Positions 2,645-63,754 of a stretch of 64,000 nt of DNA are shown piece after piece; position 1 is the stretch's first letter, and every line of letters begins with the position of its first letter. A program made the translations under genes and the position numbers. The notes under the pieces are model-generated. The model worked only from the letters and a program-made list of their open reading frames with translations. It made no database searches and was not told the origin of the DNA. Source of the stretch: Collinsella sp. 4_8_47FAA. Lineage in GTDB: Bacteria; Actinomycetota; Coriobacteriia; Coriobacteriales; Coriobacteriaceae. The stretch covers positions 1 through 64,000 of the forward strand of contig NZ_KN214134.1 in NCBI RefSeq assembly GCF_000763055.1, in the 5' to 3' direction.

Positions 2645-3532
2645 TTATGCGTTCTCCTTCATGCTTGTGAACTGGGAGCCGGTGATGATCTGGAAGGCCT
2701 CGCGATAGCGCTCGGACGTGCCATCGATGACCTCGGCGGGCAGGTGCGGGGTCTCCCCCGTCATATCCCAGTTGGCCTTGAGCCAATTGCGGACGAATTG
2801 CTTGTCGTAGCTAGGCTGGATCTTGCCCTCCTCGTAGCTGGCAGCAGGCCAGAAACGGCTGGAGTCAGGCGTGAGGCACTCGTCGATCAGCGTGACCTTG
2901 CCATCAATAACACCAAACTCGAACTTGGTGTCGGCAATGATGATGCCACGGGTCGCGGCGTACTCGGCAGCGGCCTTGTAGATCTTGAGGGAAAGGTCAC
3001 GAATCTGCGTGGCGATGTCCTCGCCCACGATCTCGCAGCAACGCTCGAACGAGATGTTCTCGTCGTGGTCACCGATCTCGGCCTTCGTGGACGGCGTGAA
3101 CAACGGCTCGGGAAGCTTGGAAGCCTCGGTCAGGCCCTCAGGCAGCTGGATGCCGCAGACGGTGCCGTTCTCGTCGTAGGTCTTCTTGCCCGAACCGGTC
3201 AGATAGCCGCGGACGATGCACTCGATAGGAATCGTCTGGGCCTTCTTAACCAGCATGGCGCGGCCAGCGAGGTAGTCACGATACTCAGCAAACTCCTCGG
3301 GGAAATCCGCCGGGTCGATGGAAACGAGATGGTTGGGGACGATGTCGGCAAACTTATCGAACCAGAATGCCGAGATGCGATTGAGCACCTCTCCCTTAAA
3401 CGGAATCTCGTCGGGAAGAATGAAGTCGAACGCAGAAATGCGGTCGGTGGCGACCATCAGCAGGTTTTCACCGGCATCGTAAATATCACGAACCTTGCCA
3501 CGGGAATCCGGACGACGCTCCATCGTTGTCAC
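2645..3532 (-). CDS. purC: SAICAR synthetase (PurC)
   Basis: Phosphoribosylaminoimidazole-succinocarboxamide synthase, which joins CAIR and aspartate using ATP in purine synthesis. Diagnostic stretches are GKVRDIYD (ATP-binding N-terminus), ATDRISAFD, PIECIVRGYLTGSG, LIDECLTPDSSRFW and the KQFVRNWL C-terminal helix, all in the correct order; at 295 residues it is of the longer bacterial type. A GTG start is chosen because AAGGAG lies eight bases before it; a GTG three codons earlier overlaps that ribosome binding site. It follows the two-component genes but a terminator-like hairpin separates them. purB, purD, purA and purE lie elsewhere in the window, so purine genes here are dispersed. Confidence 0.95.
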   Translation of the reverse strand: MTTMERRPDSRGKVRDIYDAGENLLMVATDRISAFDFILPDEIPFKGEVLNRISAFWFDKFADIVPNHLVSIDPADFPEEFAEYRDYLAGRAMLVKKAQTIPIECIVRGYLTGSGKKTYDENGTVCGIQLPEGLTEASKLPEPLFTPSTKAEIGDHDENISFERCCEIVGEDIATQIRDLSLKIYKAAAEYAATRGIIIADTKFEFGVIDGKVTLIDECLTPDSSRFWPAASYEEGKIQPSYDKQFVRNWLKANWDMTGETPHLPAEVIDGTSERYREAFQIITGSQFTSMKENA

Positions 3533-6094: not shown

Positions 6095-7306
6095 TTAAAG
6101 AGAGAATAGACGTGCAGTGACCGTCTCTGGTATACCCTGGCTGTTGCGCACCGTGGCGTACGTAAGGAATGAGTCCGATTTTCCCGCCGTAGCTGGATAA
6201 TCGCCATACTCCAAAGCGCGGTCGGGCGACAGCAGCGAGCCATAGGTCTTGGCAGAGGTGTCGATCAGGAAATGCGACGCCTGTACCTTAACAAGGTATT
6301 TATTCTTCTTGCCAGCCGCACATGCGAGCGGCTCGCGGGACAGGAAGAGGTACGGCCCTCCCTCATTACCGATATATGTGCCCATATTGCCCAGGCTGCC
6401 CACGCCACTATAGGCCGCCTCGATAGAAAACACGAAGGTATCGCCCATATATACGGCCTCGAAAGGCGAGACTGACGAGGGAAGGACTAGCTGGGCACGT
6501 TTGGTGTTGTTGCCGTCGGTCAGATCGATTGCCGTTATGCCGTAGTAGACGCCCTCGTCGTTGCGGACACGCGGCGAGATGGTCAAAATGCCGTCGCTCG
6601 CGCGCGGGGCCGATGCAAAGCGGCCCGTCGATTTCCAAATTACCTCGGCCTTGGATTCATCAAGCGAGCGACGATAGCAAAACGAATCACTACTCGTTTT
6701 ATTGCCGCCTGCCGAAGGCATTTTATACCAGATGACTGATGCCCCGAACGCCGTAAACAGCGGCGGATCGTAGTCCTTGCCACCTCGATCGAGCTCAACC
6801 ACGTCGCCAGAGAGCGAAGCGCCCGACAGATTTTGAGCGTAGAGCTTCCACGATGAATTGGCAAAGTTCATCTCAACCCACGCGAATACGCCGTCGCCGG
6901 CACGGACATCGTAGAATGCATATCCCGTGCCCTCGATAGGATCCTCGATTAATGTGGTAAGCGAGCCATCGCCCAGGTTGAGCACACCGAGCGTGTTGGC
7001 GTGCAGTGCCGATGCGGGCGCCATCATTGCCGCGGCGTAATCGCCGTCGCAGTAGTACAGCAGCGTACCCAGAGGCAGCGTCCACGACGCCGCCGGCTCA
7101 AGATCGATGTCGACTGCCTCGTACTCATCCGTAATCGAGATGATTTTGGAATCATCCTTGATAACCTGCGGCTCGCCGGCGGCATCATCGCTGGTGCCCG
7201 TTTTTTTCGAGCATCCGGCAAGCACCGTGGCAGCGCCCGCGGCAGCCCCACCGAGTACAAAGCCGCGACGCGATATTCCGTTCTTGATGTGATCGGCGAT
7301 ACCCAT
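6095..7306 (-). CDS. Tat-exported lipoprotein, probable beta-propeller
   Basis: Surface lipoprotein of 403 residues. The N-terminus carries a twin-arginine signal (SRRGFVLGG, residues 12-20) and a lipobox LAGC with the acylated Cys32, followed by a short Ser/Asp-rich linker. The rest is rich in short beta-strands with repeating patterns such as GVFAWVEMN, GASVIWYKM, DGILTISPRV and DTFVFSIEA, which suggest a TolB/WD-like propeller; this is inference. No catalytic motif is visible. It is translationally coupled to the upstream TSCPD gene (TAATG overlap). Tat export implies folding or cofactor loading before secretion. Confidence 0.75.
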   Translation of the reverse strand: MGIADHIKNGISRRGFVLGGAAAGAATVLAGCSKKTGTSDDAAGEPQVIKDDSKIISITDEYEAVDIDLEPAASWTLPLGTLLYYCDGDYAAAMMAPASALHANTLGVLNLGDGSLTTLIEDPIEGTGYAFYDVRAGDGVFAWVEMNFANSSWKLYAQNLSGASLSGDVVELDRGGKDYDPPLFTAFGASVIWYKMPSAGGNKTSSDSFCYRRSLDESKAEVIWKSTGRFASAPRASDGILTISPRVRNDEGVYYGITAIDLTDGNNTKRAQLVLPSSVSPFEAVYMGDTFVFSIEAAYSGVGSLGNMGTYIGNEGGPYLFLSREPLACAAGKKNKYLVKVQASHFLIDTSAKTYGSLLSPDRALEYGDYPATAGKSDSFLTYATVRNSQGIPETVTARLFSL

Positions 7307-16924: not shown

Positions 16925-17947
16925 ATGACGGCAAGCGACGCGACCGCGACAATTAAAAAGGGAAGTTCGGAGCCCGGTTTCGATAAAACGGCTCAGCGCA
17001 TCCTCAATCTTTTCTTTGTGCTCAACAGCTCCCCCGAACCGCTGACGACCGAGCAGATCGTCTTGGATTCTGACCTGGGATATGGCTCGGGCAGTATCGA
17101 CTCGGATAAGCGCAAGTTTCGGCGCGATCGTGACAAACTGCTCGAGCGTGGCATCTTAATCAAGGAGGTTCGCCCCGCCGGTGCGCAGGAGACCGAGGAA
17201 AGCTCGTGGACAATCGACCGCGAGCACACGTTTGCTGCAGGCGGCCTCATCACCGCAGACGACGCCGATATCCTACTCAACGCCATCGACCAGACGCTAG
17301 CGGCCGGCTCTTCCACCTTTGCCGCGCCGCTTGCCGATATTCGCTCCAAAATTGCCTACCTCACCGGCATGTCGGCGGTGGACGAAGTACCGATCCGCCG
17401 CTCTCCCACCGTCGATGCGGTATGGAGCGCCTTTGCCGAGCGATGCGCGCTGCGATTTTTATATCAGAACGGACGCGGCGAGCAGAAAGAACGTACCGTC
17501 TGTGTCTACGGCATGTTCGAACGCGAGGGCGTGGCGTACTTCTGCGGCCTCGACAATGTCACCGACGACATCAGGACATTCCGCTGCGACCGTATCGTTC
17601 GCGCATGGCGTCCTTCGAAGGCCTACGCCATCCCTGCGGACTTCAATCTCAACGACTATCTGTTCTTTGAATTCGATTTTGCCGACCGACCGCCCGTTGC
17701 AGCCACGTTCTCGTTCGCCCCTCAGACGCAGATCGATATGATCAACGGCCTCACGCGCGGGCGAGGTGAGTTCACACACACCGATGCGGGATGGATCTGG
17801 ACCGTTGACGTGCGCGACCTTGAAGCTGCCGCCTCATTTTGCATGGCCCACGCCATGGACGGCATGAGGCCCATGGCCCCCAAATCGCTCAAGCAGGCGT
17901 GGAACCACCTCATAGAAAGGACGGTGCACGAGCATGCCCGTGCGTAA
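16925..17947 (+). CDS. WYL-domain transcriptional regulator, first of pair
   Basis: A 340-residue regulator: an N-terminal helix-turn-helix (about residues 20-85, KTAQRILNLFFVLN...DKRKFRRDRDKLLERGI) followed by a WYL-type ligand-sensing domain (about 140-220, including FLYQNGRGEQKERTVCVYGMFEREGVAYFCGLD) and a C-terminal extension. WYL proteins respond to nucleic acid or small ligands and often control DNA damage or defence genes. It overlaps the next WYL gene by 14 bases, an arrangement like actinobacterial PafB-PafC, which act together in the mitomycin/quinolone damage response; orthology is inferred from architecture only. Divergent from the M28-like gene with about 200 bases between. Confidence 0.85.
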   Translation: MTASDATATIKKGSSEPGFDKTAQRILNLFFVLNSSPEPLTTEQIVLDSDLGYGSGSIDSDKRKFRRDRDKLLERGILIKEVRPAGAQETEESSWTIDREHTFAAGGLITADDADILLNAIDQTLAAGSSTFAAPLADIRSKIAYLTGMSAVDEVPIRRSPTVDAVWSAFAERCALRFLYQNGRGEQKERTVCVYGMFEREGVAYFCGLDNVTDDIRTFRCDRIVRAWRPSKAYAIPADFNLNDYLFFEFDFADRPPVAATFSFAPQTQIDMINGLTRGRGEFTHTDAGWIWTVDVRDLEAAASFCMAHAMDGMRPMAPKSLKQAWNHLIERTVHEHARA

Positions 17948-25981: not shown

Positions 25982-26020
25982 GGTCCCTCCTGGTGTGTAT
26001 TAAAGCTGTCAAACGGAGGA

Positions 26021-26036
26021 TGTTTCACGTGAAACA
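26021..26036. promoter_or_regulatory. parS site 1
   Basis: Perfect TGTTTCACGTGAAACA, the ParB recognition palindrome; 40 bases upstream of the parA start. Confidence 0.95.
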
Positions 26037-26059
26037 TTCCGAATCGATAGCAACTGCTA

Positions 26060-26075
26060 TGTTTCACGTGAAACA
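26060..26075. promoter_or_regulatory. parS site 2
   Basis: Perfect TGTTTCACGTGAAACA, exactly 39 bases from site 1. Confidence 0.95.
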
Positions 26076-26098
26076 CTGCAAGCTGTTAGTAACCATTA

Positions 26099-26114
26099 TG
26101 TTTCACGTGAAACA
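26099..26114. promoter_or_regulatory. parS site 3
   Basis: Perfect TGTTTCACGTGAAACA, exactly 39 bases from site 2 and one base past the rsmG stop codon. Confidence 0.95.
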
Positions 26115-26115
26115 T

Positions 26116-26853
26116 CTAGGCAAGCGGATTCTTCTTTGCCATGCCATTTGCACGAGGCAATGAAACGGATGCTGAATGACTCTTCTTAAGAACAATGAAC
26201 TCCCTGTGACCCAAGCCTTCAGGCAAATCAATTGCGTCATTCAGAAGCAAAGTGAAGCCGCAAATCTTAGCTGCTGACATGCCGGAAGCAAGCTCCTCAT
26301 CCGAAGGATTGCCCTTGGTGATAACAAATAGCCCTCCATCCTTCAGGTACGGAGCCGCATACTCAACAAGAATCGGTAGAGGGGCCAGTGCGCGGGCGGT
26401 TACAACGGAGAACTGCTTCTTATGGCTTCGAGCATATTCTTCAAGACGATCATGAACCGCATGAGCATGTTTCAATCCAAGAGCATGGACAAAGGAATTA
26501 ACCGCATCAACCTTCTTGCCAACAGAGTCAATATAAGTAGCTTTACGATGCGTGGTTATGGTTAATGGAATACCAGGGAAGCCCGCACCTGTTCCCATAT
26601 CGAGCAAAGCCCCCTCAGGAGCCTTATTGATATAGGGGAGCAAAACAAGTGAGTCGAGGATATGAAGTACGGCAGCATCTTCTACGTTAAGAATACGGGT
26701 GAGATTGGTTGTCTTATTTGTTTCTAGAACCAAATCCAAATGCTGGATACATTTCCTCAGCTCAATATCAGTTACGCTCAAGGAATATTCTTTGCAATAG
26801 GAAGTTAGGCGACTCAACATCTCGTCAGCCTGCTGATCGGTAAGTACAAACAA
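26116..26853 (-). CDS. rsmG: 16S rRNA (guanine527-N7)-methyltransferase RsmG
   Basis: SAM-dependent methyltransferase that modifies G527 in 16S rRNA; loss gives low-level streptomycin resistance in many bacteria. The Rossmann core is clear: LDMGTGAGFPGIPL (SAM loop), THRKATYIDSVGKK, and VVTARALAPLPILVEYAAPYL. TTG is chosen as start because AGGAG lies six bases before it (245-residue product); a longer frame begins 16 codons earlier at an ATG without a ribosome binding site. It sits between the khpB terminator and parA, as in many bacteria. Confidence 0.93.
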   Translation of the reverse strand: MFVLTDQQADEMLSRLTSYCKEYSLSVTDIELRKCIQHLDLVLETNKTTNLTRILNVEDAAVLHILDSLVLLPYINKAPEGALLDMGTGAGFPGIPLTITTHRKATYIDSVGKKVDAVNSFVHALGLKHAHAVHDRLEEYARSHKKQFSVVTARALAPLPILVEYAAPYLKDGGLFVITKGNPSDEELASGMSAAKICGFTLLLNDAIDLPEGLGHREFIVLKKSHSASVSLPRANGMAKKNPLA

Positions 26854-45877: not shown

Positions 45878-46567
45878 CTACTTTTTACGGTGCAAAAAGC
45901 GCGCGATATCTTCTTCGGTGGGGCTTTTGATGTCAAAGCGCAGCGAGAGCCAGCGCAGACCCATGGTCACGACAACGCATACGACCAGCGCGGCGACATT
46001 GCTCATGATGCCGCTCATAACGAGACACACATAGCTTGTCGATCCGGCGATGGCGGCGATGGCATAAAAGTTAGTACGTTGGAAAATGCCCGGAACCACG
46101 CCCATAAAGCCGTCGCGCAGCATGCCGCCGCCCACCGCGGTAAAAAAGCCCATCATGATGCACACCGCCGGCGCAAAGCCGTAGACCAGCGCCTTGTCTG
46201 CGCCGGTTGCCGCATAGATGCCGACCGAGATGATGTCGAGCAAGGGGATGAGTTTTTCGGGCTTGTCGACGATAGCCGGGAAGATATAGATGATGGCTGC
46301 CGTGGCAATGGAAAGCGGGAGCGCCATCGGCTGGTTGAGGATGTAGACGTTGCCTACCTGCAGCGTCATATCGCGTAAAAGACCGCCGCCCAGTCCGCAG
46401 ACCACGGCGAGCGCAACTGCACCCACCAGGTCGAGCTTATGCTCGCGCGCAACCAGCACGCCCGAGATCGATGCAGCGACAACAGCGAACATCTCGAGCC
46501 AAAACGGAATAGCGACCATGGCATCCGAGGCATGTGAGGTAATGGTTATGGCGGCGACGACGGGCAA
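45878..46567 (-). CDS. TRIC-family (UPF0126) cation channel protein
   Basis: Trimeric intracellular cation channel relative (YadS/YvgT type). Six to seven membrane helices in two homologous halves, with FWLEMFAVVAASISGVLVARE, CGLGGGLLRDMTLQVGNVYIL and the paired GFFTAVGGGMLRDGFMG motif, all diagnostic (Gly-Gly-Gly-x-x-Arg-Asp in each half). The start is uncertain: a TTG with AAAGGA seven bases upstream is used here; an ATG 16 codons later (MVAIPFW) is the alternative. The frame continues upstream through a palindromic repeat, but that part is not coding. Confidence 0.88.
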   Translation of the reverse strand: MPVVAAITITSHASDAMVAIPFWLEMFAVVAASISGVLVAREHKLDLVGAVALAVVCGLGGGLLRDMTLQVGNVYILNQPMALPLSIATAAIIYIFPAIVDKPEKLIPLLDIISVGIYAATGADKALVYGFAPAVCIMMGFFTAVGGGMLRDGFMGVVPGIFQRTNFYAIAAIAGSTSYVCLVMSGIMSNVAALVVCVVVTMGLRWLSLRFDIKSPTEEDIARFLHRKK

Positions 46568-46700
46568 GATGGGGTCCTTTGGGTTACGGATTTTGACAAT
46601 GCCCGTACATAGTACATGTTCGGCGCCGATTGCGACCCTATTGCTCGGCAAACGGTCGGGACTGGATGCGGGCGTGGCGTTGTTGGAATGCCGGGGGTCC

Positions 46701-46768
46701 AAAACGTGTACGTCAGCCTCCAAAAACGACATTTTTCGGCATCTTTGGAGGGTGACGTACGCGTTTGC
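46701..46768 (+). repeat. palindromic repeat, left copy
   Basis: An imperfect hairpin: AAACGTGTACGTCAG...CCTCCAAA pairs with TTTGGAGG...TGACGTACGCGTTT (about 21 of 23). The loop contains CGACATTTTTCGG. A second copy in inverted orientation lies at 47901-47969 beyond the nuclease-like gene. Confidence 0.8.
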
Positions 46769-46871
46769 ATATCATGCGCGGCATGCATGAGTCGATTTAC
46801 TCACATCCGGTATATTTCCCCACTTCAACGGACATAAGAGTTGGATACCGGCTCAGAGCGAGAGGCCCTCA

Positions 46872-47879
46872 ATGGATACCCCTGTTCTCATTTCGCATAA
46901 AACCGCATGGCTTGTCCATCATGCACCCCAGAATTTGGTTCAGTCTCTTGCGCGGCACGACTACCAGATAGGCGCACAAGGCATCTCCACCCAGCAACGT
47001 GTTGCGCGCATACGACAGGCTCTTACCGACTGCGGCATTCCGTCCGATATGCTTAAGACTATCGATATCGCGGTTGTATTCGAATTCGAGCGAATTCGTA
47101 CCAAAGGCGTCGTTTGTCACATTCTTGGACAAAATCTTCCCTACGAGCATATTAACGAGTTGACGCCCGGAATCTTCATCACCGACGAAGCCTTCACCTT
47201 TGTGCTCGCTGCCGAGTGGATGGATAGGATCGAATATCTCGAATATGGCTATGAAGTTTGCGGCGATTATCGCATGAGGCTCAATCCCGCCGACCCTTAT
47301 ACCGGGCAACCAGCCACTACCTCCAAGGATGAAATAACCAAATTGCTCGATCGGCACCCCGGCAAACCCGGTGCCACACGTGCACGGCTCGCGCTCAGGC
47401 ACATCTACGATCACTCGGCCTCGCCTATGGAGACCGCTTCGGCAATCGCCCTCTCGCTCCCAACAAGCGAAGGCGGCGTTGGTATCCGAGGTATCGAACT
47501 CAACAAACCGCTCGAGATCCCTCAACGTCTCTGGCATTGCACAAAAGCCCGAACACTCAAAATCGATGCCCTCATTACCTATAAGCGCAGGGAGCTCGGT
47601 ATCGAATATAAGGGCGGTTTTCACGATGAGCTCGAGCGCAAGGGAGCAGATGCGGAGCGAGAGGCCGTTCTCTCCCAAATGGGATATCGAATCGTTACGC
47701 TCACTTCGGCTCAGTTCGGCAGCCAGCTCGCCTTTCACCGCGCCATGAACAACATTCGCGAAGCACTCGGCATGCCTCGCTGTACCGACACCGGGTACCA
47801 GCGAGAGCAAAACGAACTACGCGAGGCGCTTATCCGCAACTGGAAGGGCATGCGAGACGAAGAGGCACCTTCCGAATAG
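46872..47879 (+). CDS. PD-(D/E)XK nuclease-like protein bracketed by palindromes
   Basis: A 335-residue protein. The N-terminal part (LISHKTAWLVHH...) resembles large coriobacterial families with AbiEi-like or regulator-type N-termini; this is a loose resemblance. The C-terminal part has a restriction-endonuclease-like core of the DUF559/Vsr type: LKIDALITY (Asp), LGIEYKGGFHD (Glu-x-Lys), then ERKGADAEREAVLSQMGYRIVTLTSAQF. These are the D...ExK arrangement and the downstream Arg/Asp-rich helix typical of such nucleases. Ribosome binding site GAGAGG precedes the ATG. The gene stands alone, on its own strand relative to neighbours, with inverted copies of a palindromic repeat about 100 and 20 bases from its ends. 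Target and function unknown. Confidence 0.75.
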   Translation: MDTPVLISHKTAWLVHHAPQNLVQSLARHDYQIGAQGISTQQRVARIRQALTDCGIPSDMLKTIDIAVVFEFERIRTKGVVCHILGQNLPYEHINELTPGIFITDEAFTFVLAAEWMDRIEYLEYGYEVCGDYRMRLNPADPYTGQPATTSKDEITKLLDRHPGKPGATRARLALRHIYDHSASPMETASAIALSLPTSEGGVGIRGIELNKPLEIPQRLWHCTKARTLKIDALITYKRRELGIEYKGGFHDELERKGADAEREAVLSQMGYRIVTLTSAQFGSQLAFHRAMNNIREALGMPRCTDTGYQREQNELREALIRNWKGMRDEEAPSE

Positions 47880-47900
47880 TGCCACTCCCGTGAACTCAAT

Positions 47901-47969
47901 CCAAACGTGTACGCCAGCCTTCAAAGATGTCGAAAAATGTCGGTTTTGGAGGGTGACGTACATGTTTGG
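47901..47969 (-). repeat. palindromic repeat, right copy (inverted)
   Basis: CCAAACGTGTACGCCAGCC...pairs with GGGTGACGTACATGTTTGG. The reverse complement loop CGACATTTTTCGACATC matches the left copy's CGACATTTTTCGGCATC at all but one position. Confidence 0.8.
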
Positions 47970-48001
47970 GGAAGCGTGGGATCGAGACGTATTTCGATAA
48001 C

Positions 48002-48036: not shown

Positions 48037-48127
48037 TGGCGGAGGAGGAGGGATTCGAACCCTCGTGACCTTATACAGGCCAAACGGTTTTCGAGACCGC
48101 CGCATTCAACCACTCTGCCACCCCTCC
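48037..48127 (-). tRNA. tRNA-Ser (anticodon CGA)
   Basis: Type II tRNA with a long variable arm; acceptor GGAGGGG/CTCCTCC, anticodon loop with TCTCGAAAA, T-arm GAGGGTTCGAATCCCTC, discriminator G and encoded CCA. Reads TCG. Confidence 0.95.
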
Positions 48128-48175: not shown

Positions 48176-48266
48176 TGGCGGAGAGTCAGGGATTTGAACC
48201 CTGGAGACGCTTTTGACGCCTACACGATTTCCAATCGTGCTCCTTCGGCCACTCGGACAACTCTCC
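48176..48266 (-). tRNA. tRNA-Ser (anticodon GGA)
   Basis: Type II tRNA; acceptor GGAGAGT/ACTCTCC, anticodon loop TTGGAAA, T-arm CAGGGTTCAAATCCCTG, discriminator G and encoded CCA. Reads TCC/TCT. Confidence 0.95.
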
Positions 48267-63666: not shown

Positions 63667-63754
63667 GGCGCTTCGCGGGCGGGCCAGGCTTTATCTGAAC
63701 GACTTTGCGAAGCAACCGGAGTGAAGATAAAGCCTGGCCCGCCCGCGAAGCGCC
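63667..63754 (+). repeat. long inverted-repeat element, copy 3 of the conserved-loop family
   Basis: Arms 63667-63696 and 63725-63754 are exact complements over 30 bases. The 28-base loop is GAACGACTTTGC-GAA-GCAACCGGAGTGA, matching copy 2 at 21 of 25 fixed positions with every difference a transition. The arms differ from those of copy 2. Confidence 0.85.

Follow-up and report, generated by a model that had tools for sequence, protein, structure and literature searches.

A Vsr/EDxHD-like nuclease gene between inverted palindromes in Collinsella, and a candidate family of palindrome-recognising nucleases in the Coriobacteriales

A nuclease gene between two inverted palindromes

The stretch analysed here (the window) comprises the first 64 kb of contig C1 in the 2.28-Mb genome of Collinsella sp. 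4_8_47FAA, which among named organisms is closest to strains of Collinsella aerofaciens. It contains a unit in which a nuclease gene, starting with ATG and encoding 335 amino acids (aa), is placed between two palindromes inverted relative to each other (Table 1). A first-pass annotation of the sequence had noticed this arrangement, the adjoining tRNA-Ser genes and the lack of a transposase, and all three were confirmed: the palindromes, estimated then at 68 nt, measured 72 nt, were 86% complementary as inverted copies and lay 1128 nt apart, and neither the list of open reading frames nor a Pfam search of the window revealed a transposase within the unit. Each copy is itself imperfect, a quasi-palindrome with arms of 23-24 bp and a loop of about 19 nt. 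Both folded as single strands far better than shuffled sequence (z-scores from -4.8 to -8.0), and the palindrome half-site was matched 4 times in the window, against none in 100 shuffles.

Comparison of the 335-aa protein with Pfam returned MTES_1575 at E=6.5e-5 and DUF559 at E=0.06, neither of which reached its curated cut-off, and these models were matched by 13-14 of 17 members of the nuclease family described below. In the AlphaFold model (pLDDT 89), residues 184-301 most closely resembled the catalytic domain of the EDxHD homing endonuclease I-Bth0305I (3r3p; VIA Z 9.7, 95 residues, 2.6 A), with further matches to NGO0050 (Z 9.1) and TnsA (Z 7.3), and the invariant residues include E187, D232, E245, H251 and D260. 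The sub-threshold Pfam matches, the model and the match to I-Bth0305I uphold the nuclease nature proposed at first pass, but the catalytic core, then given as D...ExK, is better described as Vsr/EDxHD-like. Residues 1-180, folded alone, matched the C-terminal domain of AbiEi (6y8q; Z 8.2, 122 residues, 3.6 A, at the low end of significance) and Rv2827c (Z 5.6). Between divergent orthologues of the gene dN/dS was about 0.1, and the gene is therefore under purifying selection. The idea that it might be a defence gene gained no support: the protein had no match in PADLOC or PHROGs, and a known defence family was rejected on the PADLOC result. Carriage by a phage or plasmid was likewise rejected, since no relative turned up in viral contigs or phage records, plasmid records yielded only distant ones and the palindrome was absent from the viral contigs searched.

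Table 1 Positions of the unit, its parts and its neighbours in the window
Feature	Positions	Strand	Remarks
Whole unit (palindrome, nuclease gene, palindrome)	46699..47970	+	Alternatives in relatives: solo palindrome, scar, inverted unit
Left palindrome	46699..46770	none	72 nt; core TGTACGTCAGCCTCCAAA / inverted copy
Right palindrome	47899..47970	none	72 nt; inverted relative to the left one
Nuclease gene	46872..47879	+	335 aa; residues 1-180 AbiEi C-terminal-domain-like, 184-301 Vsr/EDxHD-like (MTES_1575/DUF559)
Glycine-transporter-family gene	45878..46600	-	Start approximate; outside the unit; conserved neighbour used as anchor
tRNA-Ser(CGA)	48037..48127	-	Outside the unit; conserved neighbour
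tRNA-Ser(GGA)	48176..48266	-	Outside the unit

Alternative states of the site and other cargo between the same palindromes

The first-pass annotation had proposed a search for further palindrome copies and for empty sites in relatives. The state of the tRNA-Ser site could be read in 20 of them (one further genome, G026, was unreadable here); the genomes compared were assembled ones, in which copies may be hidden by contig breaks. The gene was not fixed at this position, being present in 9 of the 20: six carried the unit as in the window, three carried it inverted, four had a solo palindrome and seven a short scar. Both palindromes accompanied the orthologue in all 9 genomes of the genus in which it was found, with a spacing of 1201-1203 bp. 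The inverted units (G007, G059 and G004) lay between unchanged flanks, and their identity was 83-84% in the unit vs 92-98% in the flanks; the G007 assembly consists of few contigs, so that an assembly flip is less likely there. In the solo state (G011, G062, G028 and G061) the single palindrome stood exactly at the site of the unit. The scar, GGTTCC-ATGTTTGG, can be read as a deletion product rather than the original target because it retains the end of one palindrome arm. No target-site duplication was found, as a clean pre-palindrome site was not observed in any of the relatives compared. Sister genomes differed in site state in a tree built from the neighbouring 2 kb (G007/G060, G010/G059 and G002/G030).

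As a separate observation, 25 bp of the tRNA-Ser end were repeated in inverted orientation beside the tRNA gene in scar genomes (L060-L062, in the intergenic region to its left), perhaps the remnant of another element.

The palindrome was rare rather than widespread without a link to the gene: of 58 genomes searched, 17 carried it, almost all of them from one group of the genus, and each had a few sites. Besides the nuclease site it was found at three further sites, here called B, C and D, and in this respect, as in the solo palindromes and the paralogues described below, the results go beyond what had been noted at first pass. At site C (G000:C2:598278) one palindrome was present in 17 genomes; in G061, two palindromes surrounded the gene for a 1185-aa ABC transporter, of which the group has no other close copy, and G018 had the transporter with a single remaining palindrome. 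At site B, a palindrome pair enclosed a toxin-antitoxin-like module with a ribbon-helix-helix-like gene. Some genomes (e.g. G007 and G017; L071 and L069) held a fuller version, with a 428-493 aa protein of unknown function and a 100-aa toxin-like gene beside the ribbon-helix-helix-like gene, others had kept only parts of the module, and G006 and G062 had one palindrome. Site D held a solo palindrome wherever it could be read. A bare palindrome and a palindrome-cargo-palindrome arrangement were thus both seen at 3 of the 4 sites. Among the site B copies, that of G000 (L044, 6642-8145) showed an insertion sequence (IS), partly masked, apparently inside the right palindrome and splitting it; repetitive extragenic palindromes (REPs) as targets of IS elements are a known theme (PMC1525189).

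Across 68 distinct palindrome copies, the core arms were paired in 1179 of 1292 cells, compared with a mean of 1107 and a maximum of 1131 after shuffling, which is supporting evidence only, as related copies are not independent. Two-sided changes were seen at several arm positions, and the mismatches, counted on the loop-oriented strand, comprised 23 G-T vs 37 A-C, with no G-U skew. The mismatches show no clear G-T bias on either strand. Taken with the pairing and the two-sided changes, this fits selection at the DNA level, or templated repair, better than an RNA hairpin.

Related nucleases and their repeats across the Coriobacteriales

The nuclease belongs to a family present in 94 of 120 genomes and 49 of 66 genera of the order, with up to 13 copies per genome. 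Paralogues at 35-41% aa identity have palindromes of their own on both sides, unrelated in sequence, such as AAACCATCACAACATTCGA and AAACCCGCGCACAAACGTCAACTTTTT. The 400 bp upstream and the 400 bp downstream of each gene were compared, with the family clustered at 60% identity. A significant left-right repeat was found for 42 of 81 members. Of the 49 cluster representatives 20 had one, compared with 4 of 190 control genes (Fisher p ~3e-12); these controls were neighbours, taken from the window and from the loci that had been fetched, and not a random genome sample. A count of hairpins in family flanks vs neighbouring genes was dropped, because palindromes had been the reason for fetching many of the control loci, and the left-right comparison was relied on instead. 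The repeats it revealed were mostly inverted-repeat modules with lineage-specific sequence. Other families of the order have longer modules, of about 120-190 bp with terminal inverted repeats of about 25-30 bp, and in one distant genus the cognate module is an element of 119-121 bp with 28-bp terminal inverted repeats that is scattered over about ten or more sites, with two copies bracketing the nuclease. Our search of the open-access literature found no description of a nuclease placed between palindromes in this manner.

The motif CCWGG lay inside 18 of 40 modules, where 5.3 would be expected and 500 shuffles gave at most 12; it often took the form GAAANCCWGGTSG. This sequence forms a conserved asymmetric box in the modules of several genera (L125, L120, L132, L134, L142, L126 and others). 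In E. coli, CCWGG is also the sequence context of Dcm and Vsr, which may be no more than coincidence.

Some further repeats were observed alongside. A paralogous nuclease (L196, G000:C1:494000-513000) has its own palindrome family, at positions 1843-1887, 3085-3129, 7189-7233 and 17352-17396 of that locus, that is, two brackets and solo copies 4 kb and 14 kb off, with similar spacing in several relatives. The window itself contains, at 63667-63754, an unrelated inverted repeat of 88 nt whose 29-bp arms pair perfectly around a loop of 30 nt and which may be a solo module from a different family, and, at 26019-26116, three TGTTTCACGTGAAACA repeats, a parS-like sequence of chromosome partitioning that suggests a position near the replication origin.

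Proposed activity, alternatives and comparison with known systems

It seems to us reasonably probable that the nuclease, like other members of this AbiEi-like and Vsr/EDxHD family, works with its cognate inverted-repeat module, binding and cutting its own palindrome, and that repair between copies rearranges the DNA. Most likely, the protein would bind the paired arms of the palindrome and might then nick or cut it, perhaps when extruded as a hairpin or cruciform; repair or recombination by the host between copies could insert, remove or flip the DNA lying between two palindromes. In this manner the nuclease gene, or a passenger, could enter a site with one palindrome, be lost leaving one behind, or invert. 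The architecture and its recurrence with different palindromes, the site states, the passengers and the retained arm symmetry were observed directly; binding, cutting and a causal part of the nuclease in the rearrangements are inferred. We favour binding and cutting of the cognate palindrome because EDxHD targets can reach nearly 60 bp and AbiEi-type repeats are of 23 bp, the arms here being 23-24 bp.

Several observations weigh against this explanation. The layout had been taken at first pass for a minimal mobile unit, which holds in so far as the gene and its end structures behave together as a unit (with all 9 orthologues, and inverted in three), but not in the transposon sense, the orthologue being confined to this one site in every genome where it was found, with no sign of transposition to new sites. 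Palindromes persist in genomes without this nuclease gene, and recombination between repeats can occur without a dedicated nuclease. About half of the sampled family members had no detectable repeat on both sides, and some had a one-sided module, which could reflect either decay or a failure of the rule. The model aligns with residues 64-195 of AbiEi only, and the winged-helix domain, the DNA reader of AbiEi, falls outside that range. Lastly, the discordance between sister genomes was read from a local tree in a recombining group, not from a species tree.

The palindromes might instead serve as operators or boundaries only, the AbiEi-like protein regulating its own gene, the nuclease acting elsewhere, e.g. 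in defence, and the rearrangements being passive by-products of the repeats. Such a role would agree with the AbiEi-like fold of the N-terminal part, given that antitoxins of the AbiEi type bind paired 23-bp inverted repeats situated upstream of the gene that encodes them (PMC7319586), and in several orthologue groups one palindrome is placed upstream of the start codon, at a distance of about 100 bp. We nevertheless regard it as unlikely, since a second copy stands downstream of the gene, copies elsewhere are solo or surround other cargo, modules occupy about ten or more dispersed sites in another genus, and the adjacent toxin partner is absent (no AbiEii, DUF1814, beside the nuclease gene, whose neighbours are the glycine transporter and the tRNAs).

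Likewise unlikely, in our view, is that these are ordinary repeats of the REP type, or miniature inverted-repeat transposable elements, spread by another enzyme such as a REP-associated tyrosine transposase (RAYT), with the nuclease, the toxin-antitoxin-like module and the transporter as passengers exchanged by homologous recombination, in the way of the Neisseria 'minimal mobile elements'. Transposases of the IS200/RAYT type (Y1) do exist in these Collinsella genomes, palindromes occur without the nuclease gene and the cargo varies at conserved sites. However, the retrieved Y1 genes had no palindrome of this family alongside, except one half-site with 4 mismatches (L277), and no Y1_Tnp match was obtained in G095, where the module is dispersed; on these grounds a RAYT origin was rejected. 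Moreover, the palindrome sequence tracks the nuclease lineage, bracketing is far above that of the control genes, and the copy number is low for a REP. Finally, that the palindromes act as RNA hairpins around the gene (terminators or structured RNA) is highly improbable, and was rejected, in spite of their strong folding as RNA, since terminator prediction made no call at either palindrome, the mismatches show no clear G-U bias and solo copies lie at other sites, away from the nuclease gene.

Taken together, the recurrence with different palindromes and the alternative site states suggest an undescribed family of palindrome-recognising nucleases shaping these genomes. More tentatively, cognate recognition and cutting of the palindrome by the nuclease may represent a class of mobile DNA that is new, depends on a nuclease and is widespread in the Coriobacteriales, and in which an AbiEi-fused nuclease of Vsr fold recognises lineage-specific modules and drives insertion, excision and inversion, including those of unrelated cargo, much as in a REPtron or cassette system but with an unrelated enzyme at its core. 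If so, an enzyme family unrelated to HUH transposases would have reached independently a lifestyle in which a gene resides between palindromes of its own; a large gene family with many copies, annotated only as DUF559 or hypothetical, would be accounted for, and gene swapping between fixed sites in abundant human gut bacteria would have a mechanism. The system is small, one 335-aa protein and one 72-bp palindrome with natural full, solo, inverted and scar alleles, and is directly testable.

Among known systems, integron-type cassettes (a hairpin recombination site and IntI) were compared by layout only, namely palindrome, gene, palindrome in both orientations. The minimal mobile elements of Neisseria carry variable cargo between conserved neighbours, beside tRNA genes; here, in contrast, the cargo has palindromic ends common to several sites and inverts between them. 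With the type IV antitoxins AbiEi and Rv2827c, the protein shares the fold of the AbiEi C-terminal domain, and binding to inverted repeats is a feature of those antitoxins (PMC7319586), but its model lacks the winged-helix part, a nuclease domain is fused to it and no AbiEii toxin lies next door. The target on which I-Bth0305I dimerises is exceptionally long, at nearly 60 bp (PMC3943268), a length similar to that of the palindrome here, of about 65 bp, and the enzyme has the same nuclease fold with invariant acidic and His residues. Unlike such EDxHD homing endonucleases, our unit has no split target, the palindromes being whole on both sides and a solo palindrome marking the gene-free state; there is no intron or intein, an AbiEi-like domain takes the place of the NUMODs, and the family is chromosomal and multi-copy rather than of phage. 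The RAYT/REP units (REPtrons) differ in their enzyme, a Y1 (HUH) transposase (Y1_Tnp, PF01797, not matched by the 335-aa protein) rather than a nuclease of Vsr/EDxHD type, and in their copy number, REPs usually exceeding 100 copies whereas the palindromes here, of 55-190 bp, occupy a handful of sites per Collinsella genome, and other cargo lies here between paired copies. With those units, the present one shares a gene between two inverted palindromic repeats, repeats specific to the enzyme lineage, solo copies elsewhere and a symmetry kept through two-sided changes (PMC2817692).
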